Below are positions 5,761 to 31,920 of a stretch of 33,064 nt of DNA, piece by piece. The stretch is taken from NCBI GenBank assembly GCA_018897155.1, contig JAHILE010000047.1, forward strand, positions 1-33,064, read 5' to 3'. The position numbers were made by a program, and so were the translations under genes. A model generated the notes under the pieces. The model made no database searches. It saw only the letters and a program-made list of their open reading frames with translations, and was not told where the DNA came from. How positions within the stretch are numbered: position 1 is the first letter of the stretch; each line of letters opens with the position of its first letter. The DNA is from Nanoarchaeota archaeon (GTDB taxonomy: Archaea > EX4484-52 > LFW-46).

Positions 5761-6252
5761 ATGAAAGGAATATCAAAAAAGGAGCTTGACGTAATCTCCC
5801 TCCTGGAAATGGAAGAGAAGTTTTTCTTTACCCGGAAAGATATACGCCGTTTTTTCAAAAACGGGAATGAAATGAGCGTCTACATCCACAGGTTAAGAAA
5901 AAAGGGAAGGATAATCAAGCTCAACAAGGCAAAGTATTGCTTAATCCCTGTAAAAGCATTCGAAGGGCATTGGTCAGAGCATCCTTTCATAGTGATTGAC
6001 GAAATTTTCAACGGAAAGGACTACTTTATTTCAGGGGCTGCAGCAGAGCATTATTGGGGCCTGATAGACCAGATACCGGTAAAAATCGAAGTTAATTGCA
6101 CTAAAAAGCAGGGAACAAAAAGAATATTTAATACTGCGATAATATTCCGGCGTGTCAGGTCGTTAAACCCGAAAGATTTTGTCAGGAAAAAAATAAAGGA
6201 ACATTATTTCCTCATAGAGTCAAAAAAGAAGGCTAAACAATGGTTGAACTGA
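5761..6252 (+). CDS. AbiEi-like antitoxin / transcriptional regulator
   Basis: The protein has 163 residues. A winged helix-turn-helix fills the first 60: FFFTRKDIRRFF, then MSVYIHRLRKKGRIIKLNKAKYCLIP, the recognition helix and wing typical of AbiEi-type regulators. The remainder, including FISGAAAEHYWGLIDQIP and a basic strand-rich part, resembles the AbiEi C-terminal region. This is shorter than the second antitoxin in the window (270 residues). The stop overlaps the toxin start by 13 bases, so the pair is translationally coupled. Role: neutralises or represses the nucleotidyltransferase toxin encoded next; AbiE is a type IV toxin-antitoxin system first studied as phage abortive infection. 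The family is inferred from gene order and HTH layout; a search would firm it up. Confidence 0.75.
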   Translation: MKGISKKELDVISLLEMEEKFFFTRKDIRRFFKNGNEMSVYIHRLRKKGRIIKLNKAKYCLIPVKAFEGHWSEHPFIVIDEIFNGKDYFISGAAAEHYWGLIDQIPVKIEVNCTKKQGTKRIFNTAIIFRRVRSLNPKDFVRKKIKEHYFLIESKKKAKQWLN

Positions 6253-6992
6253 TTTCCGAGAATCGGCTGCGATACTTATCCGGCCTGAAAGGGTTCAACC
6301 TAATATATCTGGAAAAAGATTACTTTCTTAGTTTGCTGCTTTACCTGCTAAAAGATGTTAAAGACATCTGCTTTAAGGGCGGCACTGCATTAAATAAAAT
6401 TTTCCTCAATCACACCCGCCTTAGCGAAGATTTGGATTTCACCTGCCGAAAGACTACCGAATCCGCAAAAAACGAGATTGTCGCCATATTAGAAAAGAAT
6501 AAAGGCATTTTCCAGAAATACGCTTTTGAAAATCAGACTAACAATTATTTCAGATTAAAGGTTTTTTATAATAGCTATTTCACGGAAAACAGCTATATTG
6601 TCATAGACCTTAACGGAAAGGCATCATTGCATTGCCCGCCTCAAATGCAAAAAGTCAGGCATTTCTATGAGGAAATACCGGAGTTCGAGATACTTACACT
6701 GGACCCGAACGAACTGATAGCTGAAAAAATACGGGCGCTAATTGCAAGAAACCAGCCAAGAGACTATTTTGACGTATATTTCCTCTTGAAAACGGGCCAT
6801 AAGATCGATTTTGATCTGGTTGGGAAAAAATTAAACGAAGTAAATCAGAAATTTGATGTTGAACGGATATTCAAAAACGCAAACAAAATCTATTCTCACT
6901 GGGATGATGATGTGGCCCAGCTAACCAATAAACCGGTTGAATATCTTACAGTAATCAAAAGATTGCAAAAAGAGTTCAAGTACAAAGTGTAG
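6240..6992 (+). CDS. AbiEii-type nucleotidyltransferase toxin
   Basis: The protein has 250 residues. The nucleotidyltransferase core is clear: FKGGTALNKIF (residues 45-55, the G-G-T/S substrate loop), then RLSEDLDF (60-67) with the two catalytic aspartates as D-x-D. The family's later block, ELIAEKIRALIARNQPRDYFDVYFLL, follows near residues 155-185. AbiEii/MenT-type toxins transfer nucleotides to tRNA acceptor stems or other targets and stop growth. Every key residue I can check is present, so it should be active. It overlaps the antitoxin gene and ends seven bases from the 3' end of a truncated glycosyltransferase on the other strand, which suggests that the module's arrival or a later rearrangement removed the rest of that gene. 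Confidence 0.88.
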   Translation: MVELISENRLRYLSGLKGFNLIYLEKDYFLSLLLYLLKDVKDICFKGGTALNKIFLNHTRLSEDLDFTCRKTTESAKNEIVAILEKNKGIFQKYAFENQTNNYFRLKVFYNSYFTENSYIVIDLNGKASLHCPPQMQKVRHFYEEIPEFEILTLDPNELIAEKIRALIARNQPRDYFDVYFLLKTGHKIDFDLVGKKLNEVNQKFDVERIFKNANKIYSHWDDDVAQLTNKPVEYLTVIKRLQKEFKYKV

Positions 6993-10219: not shown

Positions 10220-11149
10220 TCACATATTTCTTAATTTCCATTTAAGCATAGGATGATTTCCAAGCCGCGGATTACACTTTACATCCTCAAACAATAAATC
10301 AAGGACAGCTTTTTTCTCTTCATAAAAAAGCCGTATAAATTTCTGCTCATTTTTATTTAATACAATTAGTTCTGACGCAAACGCCTTTATTTTTTCGCCG
10401 GCATTATTAATATCGATTTTCGTTCCTTTTTCCATGAGAGGAAGAAGGAACTTTTTAATGTCGTTCTGATCTATTTTACTTATGCGTTCCGTGCTTATCT
10501 TGCGGAAATCATCTGCAAGGCAGAAATAAAAGATAAAGCACTTTTTCAGCATTGTTTTATCAAATTCCAGGCCGCTCTCAAGAAGCATATAAACGTCAAA
10601 AAGGTCCCTTGCGGCGGCTCTCATGAACAATGCCCGAAGTTTTGTCGCAAACAACTCCTCCAGCATATATGTCCTTACTTTGAATTCCGGCTTTTCCAAA
10701 ATCATGATTTTCTTTTCAATTATTTCAAAAACCGGGACACGTTCCATGAAATTTATCTCAATCTTTATCCGGTCCGCATTTCCGGCAGTGTTTATGTATT
10801 TCAGGTTATATTGCAAAAGAGCGTAAGGCTGGACTTTCTCTATTTCATATCCTTCCATCCGTAAAATCTTCGTCAAAATCTTATTTATGTTTTCACGGGC
10901 TTTAAGCATATCCTCCCTGTTTCCATCAGACACGAAATTAAAGTCAATGTCAACAGAAAGGCGAGGCATCTTGAAATAAATGAAGTTTATTGCAGTCCCG
11001 CCTTTTATGGCCAGCCGGCGTCCCAGAAATTCATTTTCATAAATCATGTGCAATAAATCAGAAAGCCTAAAAACTTTCTCAAGAACATCCCGCTGAAACC
11101 TTGTTTTCTCTGACAGGCGCTCAAAATATTTTTTGTCCGACTTATGCAA
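10220..11149 (-). CDS. AbiEii-type nucleotidyltransferase toxin (second module)
   Basis: About 309 residues. AIKGGTAINFIYF (47-59) is the substrate loop and RLSVDIDFNF (63-72) provides the two catalytic aspartates. MLEELFATKLRALFMRAAARDLFDVYMLLESG is the later family block. All are intact. The start is TTG at 11149, inside the antitoxin stop region (8-base overlap), supported by GGAGATGAT just upstream; no other in-frame start lies before residue 35. The protein is only distantly like the toxin at 6240-6992, so the two modules were probably acquired separately. The expected activity is nucleotide transfer to an RNA or protein target, leading to growth arrest. Confidence 0.88.
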   Translation of the reverse strand: MHKSDKKYFERLSEKTRFQRDVLEKVFRLSDLLHMIYENEFLGRRLAIKGGTAINFIYFKMPRLSVDIDFNFVSDGNREDMLKARENINKILTKILRMEGYEIEKVQPYALLQYNLKYINTAGNADRIKIEINFMERVPVFEIIEKKIMILEKPEFKVRTYMLEELFATKLRALFMRAAARDLFDVYMLLESGLEFDKTMLKKCFIFYFCLADDFRKISTERISKIDQNDIKKFLLPLMEKGTKIDINNAGEKIKAFASELIVLNKNEQKFIRLFYEEKKAVLDLLFEDVKCNPRLGNHPMLKWKLRNM

Positions 11150-14307: not shown

Positions 14308-17300
14308 ATGAAGATCCTAGTTTTACTTATATTGATTCTAGCTTTAATTCCCAGGGCATGGGCTGCGCCTGCAGACGATGTGCTGATAGTTGTCAACAAC
14401 GCAAGCGCAGATTCCATAGCTGTCGGGAAATACTATCAGGAAAGAAGGAACGTTCCAATAAATCAGATCGTCTATATCAACACAACCACAGGAATAGACA
14501 TTACATGTGACAATTACTTTAATCAGATAGAGCTTCCTGTAAGGACTTTTCTTGATGCAAACGGACTGAAGTCAAAGATACTTTATATAGTCACGACCTA
14601 CGGCATACCCTACAAAGGATGCTACTCAGTAGACAGCAGGCTATCAGACTTATACAACGTTACTGAATGGCAGGGATACGGCACAGAAAATCCCTATAGA
14701 AGAATATATTACACAACCTACTCAAACGGCAATCATATGGGCGGCGTGCATTTCAGCAATGCCTATGGCATATATCTTGTCACACGGCTTGACGGCCCGA
14801 CGCCCGAGATAGCAAAAGGCCTTATAGACAAAGCCATGTATGCTGAAAAGTATCTTGGAACCTCTGCAACAGGCTATATGGCAGGGCAGCCGTATCTTGT
14901 CGATTCCATAAATGTTGTCTGCGCGTCAATTACAAAATCGGGGCGCTCCTGCGTCTCTGACAGCGGCCATGCAGGGGGCCCGAACGCCGCATGGCATAAC
15001 GGCGGCGGCAATGATTATGAAAACGTTTGGAACTGGATGCCTGGCGCACTCGCAGCGCATTTCCAGTCATTTACTGCATCAACCACAATAAGGAACACAA
15101 CAGGCCCAAAAGTAGTGCCTGCGATGCTTGCCGCAGGAGTAACTGCGACATGGGGCGCGGTGGATGAGCCTTACGCACCGTTTGTTCCGCAGCCCGTGGC
15201 ATATTATGATTATTTCCTGAATGGGGGCTTCAATTTTGCCGAAAGCATGTACATGTCAACCTATCTTCTTGAATGGATGTCTGTAATAATCGGAGACCCG
15301 CTTTACACCCTTCCTGCATCGGCATCTATTGACAATGAAAAGCCGGCAATCGCAAATGCCTCATTTGTATGGGATTCCAATAATCTCATAGTGAGCTGGG
15401 ACAATACACATTCGAATACAGGATCTCCGGAAATCACAGAAGGAGCAGTAGAATACGGGCTTACCGCAAGTTACGGAAGCATAAAATGGGACACAAGCAA
15501 TCTTACCTATTGGAGCGCAACAAAGCGCAATTATTTCAGCCGGCACAACATAACTATCGCAGGCCTTGACAGCTCGAAAACGTATTACGTAAGGATAAAC
15601 GCAACAGATCCTGCAGGAAACAGTGAAACATACGCCTTTTCAACAGACGGCGCACCTGCAAATGACACAACTCCGCCGACAGTCACGCTTACATCCCCTA
15701 TAAATTCCCTCATGCAAAAATCAAAATCAGTAATATTCACATGCTCTGCAACAGATAATGTCGCCATATCAAACATAACGCTTTATGGAAACTGGAAAGG
15801 AGCGTGGCACGCAAATGAGACAAAATCAACCGGCTCATCAGCATCATTCTCAAAAACAATTGCAGATGGCTCATACATTTGGAACTGCCTTGCATACGAT
15901 AATTCTTCAAATTCGCAGTTTGCAGCATCCGATTATTCCTGCGCCATAGACAGCACTCCGCCAGCTTTAACCTTTGTTCCGCCCACGCCTGTAAACAACA
16001 GCGTATCAAACAATCTGGCACTTATAAGCATAACCGCTTCTGAAACACTGGCAAGCGCCATCCTTGAATGGAACCGCACGCAAAATTTGACTATGGCTAA
16101 TGCAGGCCCCAAATGGTCTTATATGATAACATCAGTCCCGACAGGAAACTGCACATTCAAAGTCTTTGCGAATGACACAGCCGGAAACTGGAATGCAACA
16201 GAAGAAAGGACATTTTATCTGAGGCAGATGTACGCGCACAACTTCACAATAAAGGATAAATTCGGCAAGCCGATACCGGATTCAATAGTTTCGTTATATG
16301 ATAAATCCGGCGCATCAATCCAGAATTTCAAGATCAACCTTTCGGCGCAGTCAAAGGTGTTAGATTTGGACGATACCTACAGCGTGGCTTTTTCAGTCCC
16401 AACAGGGGAAATGCTTTATTTAAATAATATCAACATCAGCGCAAATGCTACTCTGGATCCCGAATTTGTCAATAGTTCGGAACTTCCTTCATTAACGCAG
16501 GCGCGGTCAGAAATAATAGCGTTTAATGCATCGGGCATAGTTTTTGATTATGCCCAAATAACCCTGCCGGTAAATGGCACAGTGAATAAGATACTGCATT
16601 GCACTGACTGGGAGTTCACAAAAGCCTCATGCAACAGTTGGGATTCAAAAGATTTATCAGCATATCCTTATAGATTGAACGCTACGCATATTGTCTTCAA
16701 TGTGACTGTATTTGATGCATATCTTGGAGGCTATTATGAGGCGCCTCTTGATGCGCCCGCCCCTATAGTAACCGGTGGCGGAGGCGGCAGCTTTGCAGCA
16801 ATATCGGCAAGTTCAATAACAATAACTCCAAACAATGAAATAACAAAGATACAAGTATATTTGAAAACCAGCATTTCAAACGCATTAATAAGCGCAACTG
16901 ACCTGCTTTCAGTCCCTGTTCCGCCTCCAAACGGCACGGTTTACAGATATTTTAACATCTCTGCCAAAAATTTCAATGATTCTATTGTCAATAACGTGAC
17001 AATAGAATTTAAGGTGAGCAAGAGGTACATTCTTGAAAAAAATATAACTTCAATATATCTGTCAAGGTATACTGGCGACAAATGGATTCGCCTAATAACT
17101 GAATTGAAAGAAGCGGATAGGGAATACAATAATTATATCGCATATTCTGCAGGGTTCTCGTATTTTGCAATAGTTGAAGAAATGCCTGTGCTTCAGGCAG
17201 CAGCAGATCCCGCCACGCCGCAGCCTCGCGAGGTCGTAAAACCAAATATATCAAGCGCGCCAACAGAAGAAATCAGGATAATAGCCGCAGAACCGCCTGA

Positions 17301-17439
17301 AAAATCGTCAAATTCAAGCACAATTCTTGCTTCAGCAGGCTTTTTTTTTATCACGGCAATCTGCACGATAATTAGGCGAAATCGTTCAAGAAAAAAAGAA
17401 TATGCTATAAAAGAGCTTAAAAAGAAAGTAGAATGCTGA
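14308..17439 (+). CDS. Giant surface protein: TIGR03790 domain, Ig/FN3-like repeats and PGF-pre-PGF domain
   Basis: The 1043 residues start with a signal peptide ending AWA. Residues 20-330 look like the TIGR03790 family: ADDVLIVVNNASADSIAVG, YYQERRNVPINQIVYINTT and LYIVTTYGIPYK, with conserved tryptophan- and glycine-rich parts. Residues 345-445 form an FN3-like domain and 455-640 two Ig-like repeats, each opening with a PP motif and containing AxDN- or NDTAGN-like stretches. The PGF-pre-PGF-like domain (about 830-950) has YRYFNISAKNFNDS, IEFKVSKRYILEKNITSIYLSRY and GFSYFAIVEE. One C-terminal helix near 1010 anchors it, with a basic tail inside. Many N-x-S/T sequons suggest N-glycosylation. 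It lies 34 bases after the smaller paralogue. TIGR03790 has no known function and is mainly described from bacteria. Confidence 0.85.
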   Translation: MKILVLLILILALIPRAWAAPADDVLIVVNNASADSIAVGKYYQERRNVPINQIVYINTTTGIDITCDNYFNQIELPVRTFLDANGLKSKILYIVTTYGIPYKGCYSVDSRLSDLYNVTEWQGYGTENPYRRIYYTTYSNGNHMGGVHFSNAYGIYLVTRLDGPTPEIAKGLIDKAMYAEKYLGTSATGYMAGQPYLVDSINVVCASITKSGRSCVSDSGHAGGPNAAWHNGGGNDYENVWNWMPGALAAHFQSFTASTTIRNTTGPKVVPAMLAAGVTATWGAVDEPYAPFVPQPVAYYDYFLNGGFNFAESMYMSTYLLEWMSVIIGDPLYTLPASASIDNEKPAIANASFVWDSNNLIVSWDNTHSNTGSPEITEGAVEYGLTASYGSIKWDTSNLTYWSATKRNYFSRHNITIAGLDSSKTYYVRINATDPAGNSETYAFSTDGAPANDTTPPTVTLTSPINSLMQKSKSVIFTCSATDNVAISNITLYGNWKGAWHANETKSTGSSASFSKTIADGSYIWNCLAYDNSSNSQFAASDYSCAIDSTPPALTFVPPTPVNNSVSNNLALISITASETLASAILEWNRTQNLTMANAGPKWSYMITSVPTGNCTFKVFANDTAGNWNATEERTFYLRQMYAHNFTIKDKFGKPIPDSIVSLYDKSGASIQNFKINLSAQSKVLDLDDTYSVAFSVPTGEMLYLNNINISANATLDPEFVNSSELPSLTQARSEIIAFNASGIVFDYAQITLPVNGTVNKILHCTDWEFTKASCNSWDSKDLSAYPYRLNATHIVFNVTVFDAYLGGYYEAPLDAPAPIVTGGGGGSFAAISASSITITPNNEITKIQVYLKTSISNALISATDLLSVPVPPPNGTVYRYFNISAKNFNDSIVNNVTIEFKVSKRYILEKNITSIYLSRYTGDKWIRLITELKEADREYNNYIAYSAGFSYFAIVEEMPVLQAAADPATPQPREVVKPNISSAPTEEIRIIAAEPPEKSSNSSTILASAGFFFITAICTIIRRNRSRKKEYAIKELKKKVEC

Positions 17440-17446
17440 TTTTAAT

Positions 17447-17458
17447 CTTTATAAATTT
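17447..17458 (+). promoter_or_regulatory. TATA box of the third PGF-pre-PGF gene
   Basis: CTTTATAAATTT centred 24 bases before ATG 17477. This supports an independent, leaderless transcript beginning at that ATG rather than the one at 17468. Confidence 0.5.
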
Positions 17459-17476
17459 AACAACTGAATGGTGATT

Positions 17477-18532
17477 ATGAAATCAATAGTGTCGCTCATC
17501 ATGTTGCTTTTGCTAGTGCCTGCTGCAAATGCGCTGAGCATAACAGTTAATCCGCTTTCTGCAAGCATAGCGCCGGGATCAGACCGAACAATATCTCTTG
17601 AAGTTTCCGGAAATGGGACTTATGCTCTTGAGATCATCCGCTGCACAAGCGCATCAGAAGGCTGTACGTTTGCCGGAAGCGACATGCTTCCAATAACTTT
17701 TGACGAAACAAAAAGCGCAACCAATAGCATAACTGTTTCAGGTTCGGGAACCAAAAGTATAACCGCAAGCCTTTCATCGTCTTTCAAAGAGTCTATCGTA
17801 TATTCTTACAAAATTTATGCTAAAAATATGAACAATACAGAAAACGCCAGCGTCACAGGGGATGTGCGATACATCGCGCCGGCAGCTTTAGGGGTCGGCA
17901 GCAATACGGGCGGCGGCATGGGCATAAGTGCAGGGACTATTAAGATAACTCTTGCATTGAAGGACAGCCCGTTTAAAAAAATACTTGTCAATTTCAAAAG
18001 CTCTATGAATAATCCTTCCATCACAGCATCCTTGCTAACGGACGTGCCTGTCTTGACATCGCTTGAATCAGAAGATCTTGTTTATCAATATCTGGAGATC
18101 AAAAAGCGCAATTTTAATGATTCTGACATAAGTGAAGCTGTAATTGAGTTTACAGTGAACAAAAGCTGGATGGCTGCAAACAATATTTCCGAGATTTATC
18201 TCAAAAGATATGACAACGGATGGAAGCCTCTTAGGACCGAATTAATAGATTCTACCGAAACGCTTAATACCTACAGGGCATACGTCTACGGATTTTCTTA
18301 CTTTGCCGTTTTCGGGAAAGTTGAAAAATCAATGCCTTTGGCAGCTCCAAAACCAGAAAACAACATAATCCCATCAGAGATAGAAGTGTCTTCAGGCATT
18401 GCTGCGACCACTCCAATACAGGAAAAATCACCTACGGGATTCGCTCTTTTTGAATCGTCAAAAAACGCGGAAATTGTTGCTGTAGCGCTCCTTCTTGGTT
18501 TCGGCATAGCATACTACCTGAAAAGAAAATAA
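17477..18532 (+). CDS. Membrane-anchored PGF-pre-PGF domain protein
   Basis: The 351 residues begin with a signal peptide (MKSIVSLIMLLLLVPAANA). Residues 20-130 form a beta-rich Ig-like domain, SITVNPLSASIAPGSDRTISLEV. A glycine-rich linker leads to the PGF-pre-PGF domain at about 150-300: VYQYLEIKKRNFNDSDISEAVIEFTV, NKSWMAANNISEIYLKRYDNGWKPLRTE and YGFSYFAVFGK. A proline-rich spacer and a C-terminal helix follow, introduced by PTGFALFESS and ending in KRK. It probably sits in the outer membrane leaflet-facing cell surface with its short tail inside. With its two upstream relatives it forms a tandem paralogue set. Confidence 0.82.
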   Translation: MKSIVSLIMLLLLVPAANALSITVNPLSASIAPGSDRTISLEVSGNGTYALEIIRCTSASEGCTFAGSDMLPITFDETKSATNSITVSGSGTKSITASLSSSFKESIVYSYKIYAKNMNNTENASVTGDVRYIAPAALGVGSNTGGGMGISAGTIKITLALKDSPFKKILVNFKSSMNNPSITASLLTDVPVLTSLESEDLVYQYLEIKKRNFNDSDISEAVIEFTVNKSWMAANNISEIYLKRYDNGWKPLRTELIDSTETLNTYRAYVYGFSYFAVFGKVEKSMPLAAPKPENNIIPSEIEVSSGIAATTPIQEKSPTGFALFESSKNAEIVAVALLLGFGIAYYLKRK

Positions 18533-24041: not shown

Positions 24042-24923
24042 TTATGGGGCTGTAGCCCCTTTTTCTATTTCTTTTATCTGCGTTCTTTCGATTATAAAAT
24101 CGATAACCTTTTCAGAACGATTTAAGTTTCGCGTAAGTTCCGCAAACGAATAATTTTCGATATATTTTTTAGAATTTCCGAAAGGAACTTTGTATCCGAG
24201 CAGAGCCCCAACCACACTAGCACTAAATTCCGCAATAACTTCCTGGTCGCCCCTCTGCCCTGTTTTTATGCCGTGCAATTTGTCGTCTACAGCATGCGAT
24301 AATTCGTGTAGGAATGTTGATATTTCTGGCGTGGCAAGGCCTATCGTTTTTTGCAGCGGCGAGTAAAAACCGTATAAGCCGTTGCTGAAATAGATACCTT
24401 CGGTTTTCAAATCCAGCTCTTTCAAGATGCCATCGAACTGACAGGGAATATTCAGAACAATCGGCGGAGCTTGTGGTAATTCCTTTCCCTCTGTGTCCTG
24501 AAATCGAAAAACCGGAATCGAGTTAAAGCCGTAGAGTATCATTTTTTCTTCCTGTGTTTTTGGATCTTGGATTTTCTTCATCAAAGGCCCAAAAATAGTT
24601 ATGGCGCGTTTGCCTGCGCTAACATGCCTTTCTGCACTTCGCCATTGCTGAAACCCTCTTGCGTCAGAAGTTCCGGCGCTGAACATTAAAACCCGATTGA
24701 GGAAGCTCCAGTTATCCGAAGGCTTGTTATATCCTTCCGGCGCTTTAAACACGGCTTGCGTAAAAACTTCAAGGTTTTCCATTTCAAAGAGTTTCAAAAT
24801 GCTCGTCATAGCATCGCGTATTTTCGGGTTTTCTTCTTTATTCACGAGTTTTTCTTCAGCCACAGATTCAAGGCTATTTTTCATTTCCTTAGAGGAACTT
24901 TCCTCACAAAGTTTGGTTTTCAT
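24042..24923 (-). CDS. ArdC-like antirestriction protein (ssDNA-binding domain plus zincin)
   Basis: The 293 residues have two recognisable parts. Residues 65-160 resemble the ArdC N-terminal domain: WSFLNRVLMFSAG, ARGFQQWRSAERHVSAGKRAITIFGP, and later a phenylalanine-rich VFRFQDTEGKELP strand. Residues 180-250 look like the MPTase-like zincin domain: FLHELSHAVDDKLHG gives HExxH at 206-210, and the conserved VIAEFSASVVGALLG gives the downstream glutamate at about 232. ArdC proteins bind single-stranded DNA and protect incoming conjugative or phage DNA from restriction. Such genes are normally carried by plasmids and integrative elements. No mobilisation genes are visible here, so it may be a leftover from an integrated element. 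ATG 24923 is the only sensible start. Confidence 0.82.
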   Translation of the reverse strand: MKTKLCEESSSKEMKNSLESVAEEKLVNKEENPKIRDAMTSILKLFEMENLEVFTQAVFKAPEGYNKPSDNWSFLNRVLMFSAGTSDARGFQQWRSAERHVSAGKRAITIFGPLMKKIQDPKTQEEKMILYGFNSIPVFRFQDTEGKELPQAPPIVLNIPCQFDGILKELDLKTEGIYFSNGLYGFYSPLQKTIGLATPEISTFLHELSHAVDDKLHGIKTGQRGDQEVIAEFSASVVGALLGYKVPFGNSKKYIENYSFAELTRNLNRSEKVIDFIIERTQIKEIEKGATAP

Positions 24924-25422: not shown

Positions 25423-26796
25423 TCATTTTTTAATCAACGACAATACGGGCCTAAATTTTGTGGTCTTATGATATGGAACGTCATTGACAATATGAACGTC
25501 AACATTGATATTTCTTGGAAGCAATTCGTACATGCTTTCTTTTATCGTTTCAGACATCCCATTATCAAAGGAGTGACGTCCGGGAACAATATAAACATCC
25601 ACTAAGTCTTCCTGAGATTGTACAATTTGGTATCTCATTCCATGGGCGGGAATGTCAAAGCTTAAACACCAATTATATGCCAGATCCATGAAGGATGATG
25701 CAGGAACTGAAGTCCCGTCAGAGTCTATACGGATACTGTCCATGATTCTTCCCTTTGGAGAACTTAGTATCCGAAAGTTACTTCCGCAGGAACATTTTTG
25801 AGTTTCGTTAAGAATTGCCAAGTCTCCCTGATGATATCGTATAATCGGTGTTGCTTCATTCAAAAGATTCGTACCTAACACAAGACCCATTTTTCCCGGA
25901 GTTTGTTCAGTTTTCGGGTTTTTTGGATCAACTATTTCAACATAACATGCATCCTCTTCAAGATGATACTTATGCATGGGACATTCGAGTGCAATTCGTG
26001 TCAATTCTTCACTACTGAATTCATCAAGTACAGGCACACCGAAATATTCTCCTAAAGCTTCGCGTTCGCGAAGAGTGGATTGTTCTGAATGTATTATGAC
26101 TAATTCGACGCCCGATCCTTTCAGATCTGCACCGATAGACGCCAGATTTCTCAAGTATGTCGGATAGGTAGATAGAACTTTGGGTTTAACCTCAGCTATA
26201 ACTTTGATAGCGTCTTCCGGTTTAGCGGTTGTTGAAAGAAATTCCGTAGAATATTTTCCGTTTACAGATGTAATCCACCAGGGTGTGGTATAGATAAATA
26301 ATGCCTTATCTTCCGGATGATACTTTCCTCCGCTTTGAAAATCGAATTGTCTAATACCTTGAAGAGTATCTTCATAAACGGCATTACGTGAAACTACTAC
26401 AGTAACAAATTTTCCAGAGGAGCCGCTGCTTGTTGTCATAAATTCAAAATTGTGCTTTGAACTCATACACTTATCTGGAAATGCTGAAATCAACTCTTCT
26501 TTTGTTAGAATGGGCAATGCTTTAAAATCATTCCATGTTTGTAGGTCTTCGGGCTCGAATCCTTCAGCAGAGTATTTTTCTTCATATAATGGAACGGTTT
26601 CATATGCGTGAGTAACAAGCTCTTTTACTCTTTTAAACTGCCACTTTTCTATATCTTCATAGGGTCGCTTGCAAGAATCACGTATTTCGGTCCATCGCTC
26701 ACCCATAATTTCTTCTAAGAAAGCATGATCTTCAGCGGTTTCTTTTCGTTTATCGCTTTTTTTAAGACCCTCATAATTAAGTCCGGATTTTGTCAT
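25423..26796 (-). CDS. CapK/PaaK-like adenylate-forming enzyme
   Basis: About 457 residues, related to phenylacetate-CoA ligases and CapK-type capsule proteins. The adenylate-forming core is visible: TTSSGSSGKFVTVVV (121-135, phosphate loop), the middle block VLDEFSSEELTRIALEC, and IIRYHQGDLAIL (A8-like). A CSCGSNFRILSSPKGR block, typical of this branch, follows. The terminal KTTKFRPVL keeps a lysine where the catalytic one is expected. It should activate a carboxylic acid as acyl-AMP, for transfer to CoA or directly to an acceptor. It has its own TATA box (26854-26865) and GTGATG ribosome site, but follows the radical SAM gene in the same direction. With that gene and the exporter it suggests a small-molecule or surface-modification pathway. 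Confidence 0.85.
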   Translation of the reverse strand: MTKSGLNYEGLKKSDKRKETAEDHAFLEEIMGERWTEIRDSCKRPYEDIEKWQFKRVKELVTHAYETVPLYEEKYSAEGFEPEDLQTWNDFKALPILTKEELISAFPDKCMSSKHNFEFMTTSSGSSGKFVTVVVSRNAVYEDTLQGIRQFDFQSGGKYHPEDKALFIYTTPWWITSVNGKYSTEFLSTTAKPEDAIKVIAEVKPKVLSTYPTYLRNLASIGADLKGSGVELVIIHSEQSTLREREALGEYFGVPVLDEFSSEELTRIALECPMHKYHLEEDACYVEIVDPKNPKTEQTPGKMGLVLGTNLLNEATPIIRYHQGDLAILNETQKCSCGSNFRILSSPKGRIMDSIRIDSDGTSVPASSFMDLAYNWCLSFDIPAHGMRYQIVQSQEDLVDVYIVPGRHSFDNGMSETIKESMYELLPRNINVDVHIVNDVPYHKTTKFRPVLSLIKK

Positions 26797-26853
26797 AGTG
26801 CATCACTGAAATCTACTACCGATATATTTCTTACTATTTAGTTGTGATATATA

Positions 26854-26865
26854 CTTTATAAATAC
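26854..26865 (-). promoter_or_regulatory. TATA box of the adenylate-forming enzyme gene
   Basis: GTATTTATAAAG on the (-) strand lies 58-69 bases before ATG 26796, in the short gap after the radical SAM gene. It predicts a leader of about 37 bases with GTGATG before the start. Confidence 0.5.
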
Positions 26866-26868
26866 TTT

Positions 26869-28338
26869 TTATGGAACGTTAGGACTATTAGGTACATTTT
26901 CTACCGATTTCATAGCAGATGCAAACGTAGATAATCCGTATTTCCATAATTTATGAATTGACGCAGCATCTAGATACTCTGTATCCATCACAGATACTGT
27001 ATCTTCCCTGTATTTTGAAAAATCTGATGAATTTATCTTGACTTTGTAGTGTTCGGGTCTTCTATATATGTCCGTACTTGGGTAAGGTGCACAAATATAA
27101 TAATCTACAAGATTCGTAAGACCTTTTAATATGAGTTTTTCTGCATATTCGATAGTCTTTATTGCACTTTCTCTACTTTCTCCAGGTAAGCCAACCAACC
27201 AGTTTGTAGCAACCGGCATATTAACTGACTTTGCTAGTGAACACGCATCCGTTATTTTCCTTACGTCCAATTTTTTATTATTTATATCTAGAATGTTCTG
27301 ATCGGCACTTTCAGCACCAAAAAACACAGCATCGCAGCCACTATTTTTCATTTTAGAAAGTGTTTTTTCATTTACAAAATCAGCTCTTGTTTGGCACGAC
27401 CAAGAAAGCCCTGTTTCTGGTATGGAATCGCAAATTGCAGTCACATATTCTTTCTTTGAAGTAAATGTTTCATCGTTAATCCATAAATCGCGTATGTTCA
27501 ATTTTTCCTTCATTAACTCAATTTCTTCCATAACGCGATCTACAGATCTATATCTCGGATAATTTTTGCTCCAAAGAGATTCTGCACAAAAAGAACATTT
27601 CATCGGACATCCGCGAGATGCGAATATCCGCCCTGAGAATATGTCCTTGTAAGTGTTTGGGAGTATGTCGTAGTCTGGCATCGGTAAAGAATCCAAATTC
27701 TCGATTAATTTTCGGTCCGCGTTGTGATGTATTGTGTTTTGGGCAAAATAGGAGATTCCATCAATTGTATTTAAGCGACTGCGATCCCACTCCAACGCGC
27801 GTAAAAGTTCTTCAACAGTTTTTTCTCCCTCCCCTCTCACTACGATATCAAATGTCTTTCCTAAAATATTATCTGCCATAAAGGAAGCATGATGGCCTCC
27901 GATAATGTTTATTGCGTCAGGATTAGATTTTTTGATATGTTGTGCAATTTTTTCAACAATGTGATAATTGTTGGTAAATGATGAGAAGAGAAATATATCT
28001 CCTTTAGTGTCATGTATTTTCTCACCGACGTTATCTAAAGCGTGCTCCACAAAACTGAGATAGGTTAGATCTAAAACGTTTGGAGAATATCCTGCATCTT
28101 TCGCTACCGGTGATAATGAACTTATCCAAAGAGGCGGAGCGGGTAAATCATATATAGGTACACTCATCCCGCTAGAGAGATTTACTGACTTGGAGAGATA
28201 TTTTTCGTATTGACTTTGTTGCTCTTCGTTTAGCATCTTTTTAGTTTTCTCAAAATACACATCAAAGAATTCTTGTTCTTCAGAGTCAAGATGATTTTTT
28301 CTTATAAAGGGACTGTTCACGAAGACAAGTTCTCGCAT
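26869..28338 (-). CDS. B12-binding-type radical SAM protein
   Basis: About 489 residues. The N-terminal part (60-190) is the Rossmann-like, cobalamin-binding-type domain, with INIIGGHHASFMADNIL and VVRGEGEKTVEELLRAL. The radical SAM core follows with ASRGCPMKCSFCAESLW; cysteines 244, 248 and 251 form the CxxxCxxC [4Fe-4S] site. NDETFTSKKEYV, SCQTRADFV, FFGAESAD and NWLVGLPGES are the usual later core motifs. Enzymes of this class do methylations, ring contractions and other hard C-C or C-S chemistry, often in lipid, pigment and antibiotic pathways. ATG 28338 is preferred over an upstream TTG. It starts divergently from the ABC exporter and precedes the adenylating enzyme. Confidence 0.88.
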   Translation of the reverse strand: MRELVFVNSPFIRKNHLDSEEQEFFDVYFEKTKKMLNEEQQSQYEKYLSKSVNLSSGMSVPIYDLPAPPLWISSLSPVAKDAGYSPNVLDLTYLSFVEHALDNVGEKIHDTKGDIFLFSSFTNNYHIVEKIAQHIKKSNPDAINIIGGHHASFMADNILGKTFDIVVRGEGEKTVEELLRALEWDRSRLNTIDGISYFAQNTIHHNADRKLIENLDSLPMPDYDILPNTYKDIFSGRIFASRGCPMKCSFCAESLWSKNYPRYRSVDRVMEEIELMKEKLNIRDLWINDETFTSKKEYVTAICDSIPETGLSWSCQTRADFVNEKTLSKMKNSGCDAVFFGAESADQNILDINNKKLDVRKITDACSLAKSVNMPVATNWLVGLPGESRESAIKTIEYAEKLILKGLTNLVDYYICAPYPSTDIYRRPEHYKVKINSSDFSKYREDTVSVMDTEYLDAASIHKLWKYGLSTFASAMKSVENVPNSPNVP

Positions 28339-28371
28339 AAATCTCAACTACTTATTAATGGTTAAAGTACA

Positions 28372-28419
28372 TTTAAATATATTTAAAATTCAACACAATC
28401 CCATCAATCAATGATTGTG
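28372..28419. promoter_or_regulatory. Divergent promoter and operator between radical SAM and ABC genes
   Basis: TTTAAATATATTTAAA (28372-28387) is a symmetric TATA box able to drive both directions. On the (+) side CACAATC (28394-28400) and GATTGTG (28413-28419) form an inverted repeat across the expected transcription start, about 26 bases from the box. One regulator could thus control exporter and enzyme together. Confidence 0.5.
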
Positions 28420-28466
28420 ATGAAAATGATGCATAAGCATAAGAAAGTAATTAGCAAAATATGGTT

Positions 28467-29423
28467 ATGAGTAATGTTGATGAGTTAGCCATAAATATTA
28501 ATCATCTAACAAAATCATTTGAACAAGATGGTGGCTCGAAAAAAGTTATAATCGATCTCTCGTTAGAAATTAAAAAAAATCAGATATTTGGTTTGCTCGG
28601 TCAAAACGGAGCGGGTAAAACCACGTTAATATATATATTATCAGGTCTCCTTCAAGCTGATAAAGGTGTACTCAAAGTGCTCGGTTGCGATCCAGAAAAG
28701 CAGAGAATTGAACTCGCCAAAAAAATTAATATTTGCAGCGGAAATTCACTATTTTTTTACATATTCACGGCTCGAGAAATACTGAAATATTACGGTCTTT
28801 TATATGGTATGAGTGAGAAGGATATTGAAACAAAATCAAATCAACTCATAAAAGAACTCGGCATTGAGAAGTTTGCAAACGATCAATTTCACGAACTTTC
28901 TACAGGTATGAAGCAGAAAGTTGCTCTGGCAAAGGCACTTATTAATAGTCCCGAACTTCTTTTTCTAGATGAACCAACTTTAGGGCTTGATGTGGAGGTT
29001 GCGAAGAACATACGTCAATACCTTAAAAATCTTGTTTTAAAAGAAAAAATGACTATTGTTCTTACGTCTCACTATCTTTCAGAAGTTGAAGAACTATGTA
29101 ATGATATTGCAATAATACATCATGGAAAAATAATAGCTAAGGGAAATGTAGAACAAATAACCACATCGGCTAATGTAGATACAACTATGATCGCAAAATT
29201 TGAGAAAATACTCGGTGATACAAAATTCATAGAAAAAATTTCCGGTGTGCGTAGTGTCATAGTTAATGAAAGTGAGGCCATTATTTACATTAGCGGCGGT
29301 CCATCAACTGTTGAAAGAATTCTTATCGCACTCAAAGATAAAAAGGTTGTATTATCGCATGTTGAAGTAAGAAAAGCAACACTTGAAGAGGCGTTTTTGC
29401 GCTTAATACGTTCGGAGGAATAA
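28467..29423 (+). CDS. ABC transporter ATP-binding protein (ABC-2 type exporter)
   Basis: About 318 residues. Walker A is GLLGQNGAGKTTLIYILSG, the signature LSTGMKQKVALAKALI, and Walker B LLFLDEPTLGLDVEV. The C-terminal hundred residues have the extension found in multidrug and polyketide exporters (DrrA/CcmA-like), with VEVRKATLEEAFLRL. ATG 28461 is an alternative start; neither has a clear ribosome site. It ends one base before the permease ATG. Together they form a two-gene exporter driven by ATP at the cytoplasmic membrane. Its partners suggest it expels a small molecule or lipid-linked sugar. Confidence 0.9.
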   Translation: MSNVDELAININHLTKSFEQDGGSKKVIIDLSLEIKKNQIFGLLGQNGAGKTTLIYILSGLLQADKGVLKVLGCDPEKQRIELAKKINICSGNSLFFYIFTAREILKYYGLLYGMSEKDIETKSNQLIKELGIEKFANDQFHELSTGMKQKVALAKALINSPELLFLDEPTLGLDVEVAKNIRQYLKNLVLKEKMTIVLTSHYLSEVEELCNDIAIIHHGKIIAKGNVEQITTSANVDTTMIAKFEKILGDTKFIEKISGVRSVIVNESEAIIYISGGPSTVERILIALKDKKVVLSHVEVRKATLEEAFLRLIRSEE

Positions 29424-29424
29424 A

Positions 29425-30207
29425 ATGTTTTCACATGTTAAGGGATATTTTTATAAGCATTATATTATGTATAAGAAAAGTACTGTTGAAAAAGCCACTC
29501 TTTTTATATATCCATTTGTATCTTTATTTTCAATAGGGCTACTTGCATTATACCTTCGTGCGATGGGTTCGCCTCTTGATGTTGTACCGTTTGTCATGAT
29601 TGGTGTAATCGCATGGACGTTCTACGATCTTTGCCAGCGTGTTGTAGTATACGGCATATTATTAGATATCTGGGACTACTGCTTAAAGCATTCAATGATT
29701 TCAACAGCTACATTAGTCGATTATCTTATTGGAAATTCGCTCTTTGGACTTTTAATAAGTAGCATCTCATTATTAATTCTGAATATACTCAGTTCAGTTT
29801 TCTTCGGTTTTAGTATATTTTCTGCAGGAGTGGCTTCTGTCATTTCTTTTATAATAATATTCATTTTTGCGGTGGCTACCGGTCTTGCGATTAATTCGAT
29901 AATCTTATTAGGCAATAAAGAAAACGCAGTGCTTGTGTGGTCGGTACCTGGTATTGTGATGGTCTTTTCAGGTGTATATTATCCATTAAACATGTTGCCT
30001 GGAATTATTCAGGCGATCGCTTACATTCTTCCGACCACATATGCAATTGAGGCAATACGAATCGACATGGGCTTCTCAGAGGGTATACTATGGAGGACAC
30101 TTTTGTATGGACTTGTAACATCACTTATATATCTAGTATTTTTTTACCACGTTTTTGAACGCGCCATATTTCAAGAAAGAAAAAAAGGTAAGACCATTTT
30201 AAGTTAA
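29425..30207 (+). CDS. ABC-2 type transporter permease
   Basis: About 260 residues with six hydrophobic segments, the first near residue 25 and the last near 235. The fold is ABC-2 type: PFVMIGVIAWTFYDLCQR, then a cytoplasmic-facing loop and the conserved VWSVPGIVMVFSGVYYPLNMLPGIIQAIAYILPTTYAIEAIR region before the last helix. The GGAGGA ribosome site overlaps the stop region of the ATPase gene, so both subunits are made in step. Two permeases and two ATPases would form the exporter. Confidence 0.9.
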   Translation: MFSHVKGYFYKHYIMYKKSTVEKATLFIYPFVSLFSIGLLALYLRAMGSPLDVVPFVMIGVIAWTFYDLCQRVVVYGILLDIWDYCLKHSMISTATLVDYLIGNSLFGLLISSISLLILNILSSVFFGFSIFSAGVASVISFIIIFIFAVATGLAINSIILLGNKENAVLVWSVPGIVMVFSGVYYPLNMLPGIIQAIAYILPTTYAIEAIRIDMGFSEGILWRTLLYGLVTSLIYLVFFYHVFERAIFQERKKGKTILS

Positions 30208-30237
30208 AACCTAACGCCACCTCATGCAATTCACTCT

Positions 30238-30249
30238 GCGCTAAAGCGC
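30238..30249. terminator. Short GC-rich hairpin between convergent genes
   Basis: GCGC-TAAA-GCGC lies between the permease and ABC-F stops. It may help end transcription from both sides, but there is no strong T-run; its GCTTTAGC core on the (-) strand also appears in the hairpin at 18606-18625. Confidence 0.3.
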
Positions 30250-30281
30250 GGAAGATTTCTTGCGGGAGTAAACGTTTAAAC

Positions 30282-31877
30282 TCATTCTTCATAGTACTCT
30301 TTGAATAAGTCGTAGTTGCCATTGAATGTGTGTATCATCCCATTTTCAAGATACCATATCTTGTTACATAGACCGTTTATGAATGACCTATCATGACTCA
30401 CAGTTAATAGTGTGCCATCATAATTTTGTAGCCCTCTTTGAAGCAATTCGCCTGAGACAATATCCAGGTTATTGAGCGGTTCATCGATGATTAAAAAATT
30501 CGAACGTTCGGCCATGAATTTAGAGAGCATAACCCGCGATCTTTCTCCGAGGCTTAACTTCCCGATTTTTTTCAGGACATCATCACCCTTGAAAAGCATG
30601 CTGGCTAAAAGACCACGAGCTTTGCCTTCATCCATGCTTCCGCTGGACACATAAATTTCATCCAATATTGTTTTCTCATTATTAAGTGTGTTTAATTCCT
30701 GATCATAATATGAAATCTTGACATTCTGGCCACGCTTTATACTTCCTTCAAATGGTTCTTCGCCTAAAATCATTTTTATTAATGTCGATTTGCCATGACC
30801 GTTAGGTCCAAGCAACGCGATTTTATCTCCCCGATATATGACTTCGTTAAAATCATCGATTATATGTCGGTGTTTATAGCCCTTTGAAACATTTTCAAAT
30901 TCGACCATCTCGGTTGAGCCGCGTTTATCTTCTTTAAGATTTAATCGCATTTTCCCAGTTGTATCCCTGGGCTTCTCAATAGCACCTCTTTCCAATCTAT
31001 CTGCTCTTTTCCGGATGCTTCTTACGGTTCTGCCCAACTTTACTGCGCCTTGTTGTACCCAGATTGCTTTAATTCGCGCAGACTCCCGCAATCTCTTTAC
31101 CTCTTCTTGTTGCTGTTCGTATAAATCGGTTCTTCGTTTTAGGTCCTTTGATTTTTCTTCTAAATAAGTCTCATAATTGCCAGAGTATGATTTCAATCGT
31201 CCGTCATCTAATTCCACAATTTTGTTGGACACATTGTTTATAAACTGCTTATCATGAGAAACCATGAGTAGTGTATCGAGTTTATTAAGATAATCTTCAA
31301 GCCATTCTCTCGAGGGTAAATCCAGGTGGTTCGTGGGTTCATCAAGAATATAGAAATCCCCCTCTTGCGAAAGAGCTCTTGCTAGAGAAAGTTTGGTTTT
31401 CTGACCGCTACTTAGATTACTGATTGTTAAATCGTAATCTTCTTCTTGAAAACCCATAGCCTCTAGTATTTCATAGAATCGCTTCTCATTCGGCTTTCTT
31501 GAGGATGACACTATCGTGTCATATTCCACCAAAACCCGATTCATTCTGTCTTGGAACTCGTACGTTTTAGGATCGGCCAATATGTTGTTGATTTCGGCTA
31601 ACCGAGCATCCATAGTCTTTAAAACATCCCTGCTGGTTTTTTTAGCATCCAATTCCCATACCTGTGGAGCGTACACAATCAGAAGGTTGCTCTTTTTTCT
31701 TACGGTTCCCCCCTCATAATCCTCTAAACCAGTTATTATCTTAATAAGTGTTGTTTTCCCTCTGCCATTTTGCCCTATTAATGCTATCCGGTCTCCTTTA
31801 TTCACTGACAGATTTGCATTCTCAAATATTGGTCGGTCATATGATTTCTTCAGACCGGATATATTTACATACTCCAT
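30282..31877 (-). CDS. ABC-F family ATPase
   Basis: About 531 residues with two ABC domains and no membrane segment, the ABC-F layout. Domain 1 has GQNGRGKTTLIKIITG, LSSGQKTKLSLARAL and FYILDEPTNHLDLPS. Domain 2 has GPNGHGKSTLIKMILG, LSLGERSRVMLSKFM and NFLIIDEPLNNLDI, with L in place of the usual T in its EPTNHLD block. A charged, coiled linker of roughly 90 residues between them (about 230-320) is the tRNA-contacting region in known members. ATG 31877 follows GTGAT. ABC-F proteins act on the ribosome; many protect it from antibiotics, others tune translation. They are uncommon in archaea. Position next to a divergently controlled exporter and biosynthetic enzymes suggests self-protection. 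Confidence 0.88.
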   Translation of the reverse strand: MEYVNISGLKKSYDRPIFENANLSVNKGDRIALIGQNGRGKTTLIKIITGLEDYEGGTVRKKSNLLIVYAPQVWELDAKKTSRDVLKTMDARLAEINNILADPKTYEFQDRMNRVLVEYDTIVSSSRKPNEKRFYEILEAMGFQEEDYDLTISNLSSGQKTKLSLARALSQEGDFYILDEPTNHLDLPSREWLEDYLNKLDTLLMVSHDKQFINNVSNKIVELDDGRLKSYSGNYETYLEEKSKDLKRRTDLYEQQQEEVKRLRESARIKAIWVQQGAVKLGRTVRSIRKRADRLERGAIEKPRDTTGKMRLNLKEDKRGSTEMVEFENVSKGYKHRHIIDDFNEVIYRGDKIALLGPNGHGKSTLIKMILGEEPFEGSIKRGQNVKISYYDQELNTLNNEKTILDEIYVSSGSMDEGKARGLLASMLFKGDDVLKKIGKLSLGERSRVMLSKFMAERSNFLIIDEPLNNLDIVSGELLQRGLQNYDGTLLTVSHDRSFINGLCNKIWYLENGMIHTFNGNYDLFKEYYEE

Positions 31878-31883
31878 AAATAT

Positions 31884-31920
31884 CACTATATAGTGTTATA
31901 TTCGAGGTGATATTTAAAAA
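31884..31920 (-). promoter_or_regulatory. Promoter and palindromic operator of the ABC-F gene
   Basis: CACTATATAGTG at 31884-31895 is a perfect 12-base palindrome. It overlaps the expected transcription start given by the TATA-like TTTTTAAATA at 31911-31920, and the ribosome site GTGAT. Binding there would block both transcription and, in RNA, initiation. Confidence 0.55.

Follow-up and report, generated by a model that had tools for sequence, protein, structure and literature searches.

Gene clusters that join the biosynthesis of a drug to an ABC-F protein are already known in actinomycetes, LmrC being an example (PMC8546547). A survey from 2019 reported that nearly all Archaea lack ABC-F proteins, which it recovered only from a few Methanomassiliicoccus-related euryarchaea (PMC6723617), and the origin of the OptrA-type resistance proteins is still unresolved (PMC11047308). 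Gene by gene, the described systems with which the locus presented here can be compared are the ABC-F proteins TlrC, CarA and LmrC of drug producers, the AREs PoxtA, OptrA, VmlR and MsrE, the biosynthetic PaaK-type ligases ClxA, NatL2 and AjiA1, the radical SAM proteins ApyD, HpnJ and BchE, and the DrrAB-type ABC-2 drug exporters.

The window analysed here, a stretch of 33,064 nucleotides, is one contig (JAHILE010000047.1; C47) of a Nanoarchaeota MAG of 1.43 Mb with a completeness of 96%. All parts of the locus come from known superfamilies. We found no description of their combination, of its archaeal occurrence or of the cross-domain family in the open-access literature searched, and these searches also returned no archaeal pathway for a ribosome-targeting antibiotic with ABC-F self-protection; the first-pass annotation of this DNA had likewise recognised no described archaeal pathway of this kind. 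We consider it rather likely that the locus is a compact small-molecule biosynthetic cluster for a translation inhibitor with built-in self-protection.

Gene content of the locus

The five genes named in the first-pass annotation are present and intact, their open reading frames being uninterrupted and free of internal stops in the window translation, and the Pfam and NCBIfam domains agree with the assignments. The features are as follows:

25423–26796, minus strand: PaaK-type adenylate-forming ligase, 457 aa
26869–28347, minus strand: B12-binding class-B radical SAM protein (rSAM), 492 aa; PF04055 and PF02310
28389–28424, no strand: imperfect inverted repeat of 12 nt, TTCAACACAATC / GATTGTGATGAA, with a 12-nt spacer; 11/12 paired
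28461–29423, plus strand: ABC exporter ATPase, DrrA-like, 320 aa; PF00005; linked to the cluster by position only
29425–30207, plus strand: ABC-2 permease, 260 aa; PF01061 (ABC2_membrane); linked to the cluster by position only
30282–31886, minus strand: ABC-F ATPase, 531–534 aa; two stretches of PF00005 and a PF12848 (ABC_tran_Xtn) linker
31880–31899, no strand: near-palindrome of 10 nt, ATATCACTAT/ATAGTGTTAT; 9/10 paired

Judging from the alignment with the Aenigmatarchaeon copy described below, the ABC-F gene probably starts with the ATG at 31877. The minus-strand genes follow the order ABC-F, rSAM and ligase, and the exporter pair sits divergently between the first two. This pair resembles the DrrAB-type exporters in its two-gene arrangement, its DrrA-like ATPase and its ABC2_membrane permease but scores beneath the TIGR01188 and TIGR01247 cut-offs.

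Symmetric operators had been proposed for both regulatory regions. Inverted repeats do exist there, one separating the divergent rSAM and exporter genes and the other lying immediately upstream of the ABC-F ATG, and they may possibly serve as operators; their symmetry is modest to weak, being equalled in 2.2% and 1.2% of shuffles, respectively.

For anti-phage defence, a reading that was dropped, a PADLOC scan gave generic ATPase matches and a single 60-bit match, that of the rSAM to the candidate model PDC-M51A. Elsewhere in the window, a 293-aa protein encoded beside the cluster (24042–24923) carries a zinc-protease-like motif, HELSH, and matches no family, two AbiEii-type nucleotidyltransferases (6240–6992 and 10220–11149) stand amid polysaccharide genes as candidate toxin–antitoxin systems, and two surface proteins with PGF-pre-PGF domains are encoded at 14308–18532, one of which also contains TIGR03790.

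The ABC-F protein

The window ABC-F reaches 429 bits against the NCBIfam model NF000355, 'ribosomal protection-like ABC-F' (cut-off 380), to which the Aenigmatarchaeon copy scores 436 bits, and it fails the EttA (331 bits versus a cut-off of 599) and Uup (349 versus 900) models of the same collection. The score above the NF000355 cut-off is a feature in common with PoxtA, OptrA, VmlR and MsrE. In a tree of 38 rows, the window and Aenigmatarchaeon (L119) proteins form a clade of their own (100/100), and an EttA and Uup pair (95/91) excludes the window protein; since both EttA and Uup are long branches, their pairing needs caution. On the scores and the tree, we rejected a housekeeping EttA or Uup identity, which the first-pass annotation had weighed against its own proposal. 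The backbone support of 63/72 leaves the deep forks, and thus any grouping with proven AREs, uncertain, so that the phylogeny gives no proof of a protection function. The window protein differs from the AREs in belonging to a deep clade without any tested member and in having an archaeal host.

The linker of the window ABC-F comprises 100 residues, which is 8–10 aa more than in EttA and Uup (90–93 in EttA, Uup, YbiT and YheS), identical to PoxtA (100) and shorter than in LsaE (122) and MsrE (126); an arm of EttA length is retained. When the AF2 model (pLDDT 84) was searched with Foldseek, PoxtA was the top match (TM 0.82), followed by YbiT (0.79), YheS (0.78), VmlR2 (0.77) and EttA/Uup (0.74); this ranking varies with conformation and is used here only as support. 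Both domains have intact Walker A, Walker B and switch residues. The motifs of NBD2 are non-canonical (LSLGE and DEPLNNLD; LSLGE and DEPVNNLD in the Aenigmatarchaeon copy), and the LSLGE signature is a further difference from the AREs. We propose that the protein may be a ribosome self-protection factor, placed, like TlrC, CarA and LmrC, in a putative biosynthetic cluster. ABC-F genes were confirmed to be rare in archaea, as had been claimed: they are present in at least 8 of the 247 relatives, a lower bound because the first look scored five candidates in each genome, which agrees with the previous survey (PMC6723617).

The ligase and the radical SAM protein

Pfam gave no match to the ligase, and its nearest NCBIfam models (DVU_1553, PaaK and FlxY) all score far beneath their cut-offs. 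The AF2 model (pLDDT 90) has the PaaK fold, PaaK structures were also matched by sequence, and the protein carries the motifs SGSSG (residue 124), DEFSSE (258), RYHQGD (320), GRIMD (349) and a C-terminal KFRP (447); the fold and the adenylation motifs place it in the PaaK-type adenylate-forming superfamily. Its identity as a catabolic phenylacetate-CoA ligase, the other outcome that the first-pass annotation had set against its proposal, was rejected on the scores (96 bits against TIGR02155, cut-off 646, and 105 against NF041878, cut-off 700) and on the gene context, as no paa genes were present among the neighbours searched in the window. The matches of the ligase model include ClxA, NatL2 and AjiA1, which share the PaaK fold, the adenylation motifs and the cluster setting but are only 18–20% identical to the window ligase, a member of a separate clade with a DEFSSEE motif. 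In a tree built with a quick method, the window ligase and the ligases of the archaeal and clostridial clusters described below form this clade with 100% support; the mis-framed row of Shapirobacteria was left out of the reading. The Shapirobacteria copy itself (L032 9863–11371; 55%) is broken by an in-frame stop, which may reflect a pseudogene, recoding or an error.

The rSAM belongs to the B12-dependent radical SAM proteins, as it combines a B12-binding domain with a radical SAM domain of the CxxxCxxC type (CPMKCSFC at residue 247). Its nearest named NCBIfam models, ApyD, HpnJ and BchE, represent proteins with the same domains and motif, but none of their equivalog cut-offs is reached (176 versus 750, 167 versus 578 and 161 versus 481 bits, respectively), and the window protein has no characterised ortholog. 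Its matches on plasmids of Lawsonia, Rhizobium, Pseudomonas and Mesorhizobium (25–31%) belong to clusters of other kinds and were not considered further. Scans of viral contigs with the ligase and with the rSAM, each as a single protein, gave no match.

In the pathway that we favour, the rSAM would first perform a radical methylation or another carbon-skeleton change on a carboxylate precursor, and the ligase would then adenylate a carboxylate and couple it to an amine or thiol. The ABC-2 pair would export the product, and the ABC-F would displace the compound from the ribosome of its own host, to which it would bind close to the peptidyl-transferase centre.

Conserved genes in other archaea

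A profile made from the ligase and its homologue on a Bartonella plasmid was scanned against genome contigs and gave 69 loci. The best of them (L030) is a 3.7 kb contig (C61) of an Aenigmatarchaeota MAG (G247), which opens inside an rSAM (67% identical to that of the window). Next come the genes for the ligase (59%), for a RaSEA-like radical SAM protein and, as a fragment, for a threonine-synthase-like PLP enzyme, the remainder of which opens a further contig (C52). On a third contig of this genome (C32), a C39-like peptidase gene precedes an ABC-F gene, and immediately after the latter, at the contig end, lies the N-terminal part of an rSAM (56%); this ABC-F is 62% identical to the window protein and is the single match at E ≤ 1e-40 in the 0.7 Mb genome. 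Because the rSAM pieces match residues 4–132 and 240–483 of one protein and each ends at a contig edge, we infer that the contigs join, and the C39-like peptidase, ABC-F, rSAM, ligase, RaSEA-like and PLP genes would then be collinear in one operon-like run over C32, C61 and C52. The order ABC-F, rSAM and ligase is the same as in the window.

The first-pass annotation had suggested looking for conserved co-occurrence of all five genes. The unit of ABC-F, rSAM and ligase recurs in the Aenigmatarchaeon, but the exporter pair is missing from the run, its nearest relatives in that genome (42% and 28%) being non-syntenic at a different locus; as it is not kept with the other three genes, co-occurrence does not extend to all five, and the exporter was rejected as part of the conserved core. 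At L148 1654–5879 (C56), the same genome contains a DrrAB-like exporter followed by genes for a C39-like protein, a methionine-aminopeptidase-like and a C45 acyltransferase-like protein. A Woesearchaeota MAG encodes the ligase together with the RaSEA-like protein, the PLP enzyme, a Ddl-type ATP-grasp ligase and a C39-like peptidase that is 36% identical to that of the Aenigmatarchaeon (E 3e-30).

The three-gene unit was found in two genomes only, that of the window and that of the Aenigmatarchaeon, which counts against the interpretation as a biosynthetic cluster. At E ≤ 1e-60, the rSAM was detected in its own genome alone among 101 genomes (its own and relatives), and the ligase matches in relatives are ordinary PaaK-like proteins with 23–29% identity. 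An alignment-based search of 247 genomes yielded no close members of the ligase. Among 156 genomes of its phylum, the Aenigmatarchaeon is the sole true member.

Searches of the window genome, a MAG that is 96% complete, revealed neither a RaSEA-like protein nor a match to the PLP enzyme, and its cluster is therefore reduced compared with close relatives. A smaller product, loss of function or decay, a missing contig or complementation elsewhere are possible reasons. The missing genes also suit an explanation in which the ABC-F and the exporter, which by themselves make up a resistance set, resist the antibiotics of neighbours; the ligase and rSAM would then be the reduced and possibly non-producing leftover of a larger cluster, or would modify or inactivate the drug. 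We regard this as unlikely, since the ligase and rSAM are full length, have intact catalytic motifs and hold 56–67% identity to the fuller cluster.

Bacterial relatives of the ligase clade

The ligase clade was found in Woesearchaeota, in one candidate-phyla (CPR) bacterium and in gut Clostridia/Bacilli, with identities to the window ligase of 59% for the Aenigmatarchaeota copy, 58% for the Woesearchaeota copy and 46–53% for those of Clostridia/Bacilli. In all 15 Clostridia/Bacilli loci a RaSEA-like gene adjoins the ligase, and 14 contain an ABC-F, the exception (L039) being a truncated locus. In most of them there follow the PLP enzyme, a GntC/VioD-like PLP protein of the aminotransferase fold, with GntC as its best model and a match to capreomycidine synthase as well, and agmatinase-like and diaminopimelate-decarboxylase-like proteins. 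Eight of the 15 loci (L033, L034, L035, L037, L040, L043, L045 and L048) carry a second ABC-F (L033 18926–20815 and equivalents), which scores 713 bits against the OptrA model, whose strict cut-off is 1450; the five copies sampled for the 38-row tree are sister to OptrA with 100/100 support. It is possible that such clusters were the biosynthetic setting in which optrA-type proteins originated.

The clostridial clusters (e.g., L033) thus share with the window a ligase of the same clade and ABC-F genes in the locus but differ in the presence of the RaSEA-like rSAM, PLP and agmatinase-like enzymes and in the absence of a B12 rSAM beside the ligase, the latter counting against our interpretation. 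Their ABC-Fs come from lineages other than that of the window, and the joining of separate ABC-F lineages to one ligase family fits the self-protection predicted for producers of ribosome inhibitors. In Pseudomonas psychrophila, a distant ligase overlaps an unrelated ABC-F, and the cluster around them also encodes oxidoreductases, an ABC exporter and an aminotransferase; beyond the Clostridia/Bacilli, archaeal and Pseudomonas loci, ABC-F genes are scarce among the 69 loci. Synteny of the putative biosynthetic and protection genes is conserved in the Aenigmatarchaeon trio as well as in the ligase and ABC-F pairs of the clostridial group. The earlier proposal that a compound is made, expelled and acts on ribosomes gains from the conserved core and the ABC-F association; export is weakened by the unconserved exporter, and the ribosome is the presumed target.

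RaSEA is an archaeosine enzyme, and EttA and YbiT are ABC-F translation factors. As the RaSEA-like partner scores 192–205 bits against TIGR01210, just short of the cut-off of 212, the genes could be imagined as an RNA- or ribosome-modification module, in which the ligase and radical SAM protein modify a tRNA or rRNA base and the ABC-F is a partnering translation factor. We find this distinctly improbable: the clostridial relatives bring GntC/VioD-like PLP, agmatinase-like and diaminopimelate-decarboxylase-like enzymes and an OptrA-sister ABC-F, the RaSEA-like gene is missing from the window genome, and the patchy distribution differs from that of a housekeeping modification. The surface-lipid alternative of the first-pass annotation can be spelt out as a lipid or glycan locus in which the rSAM would alter a lipid, the CapK-like ligase would activate a fatty acid and the exporter would carry the product to the surface. 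It can point to HpnJ among the top rSAM models and to polysaccharide genes 12 kb away in the window but is very improbable: in none of the related ligase-clade loci was the ligase seen beside genes for glycans or lipids, its conserved partners being the ABC-F, the RaSEA-like rSAM and PLP enzymes, and the ABC-F would be left without explanation.

Returning to a biosynthetic cluster with self-protection, we suggest more tentatively, as a conjecture that may well fail, that small-genome archaea make a ribosome antibiotic of a new class and protect archaeal ribosomes by an ABC-F, within a family common to CPR bacteria and to gut Clostridia with OptrA-sister ABC-Fs. If true, archaea would be shown to produce an antibiotic and to protect ribosomes from it, a cross-domain biosynthetic family would become available for mining, and OptrA-type resistance proteins would gain a natural context.

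Two other arrangements were observed among the loci. In Patescibacteria (L049, L067, L084 and L092), a related ligase (37–41%) is followed by a cytidine-deaminase-like gene in a distinct two-gene unit. Another cluster, common to a Bartonella plasmid and actinobacteria (L022 4282–14321, L080, L081 and L085), surrounds a distant ligase with an ATP-grasp protein, an enolase-like racemase, an aminotransferase, two oxidoreductases and a MATE-type exporter.
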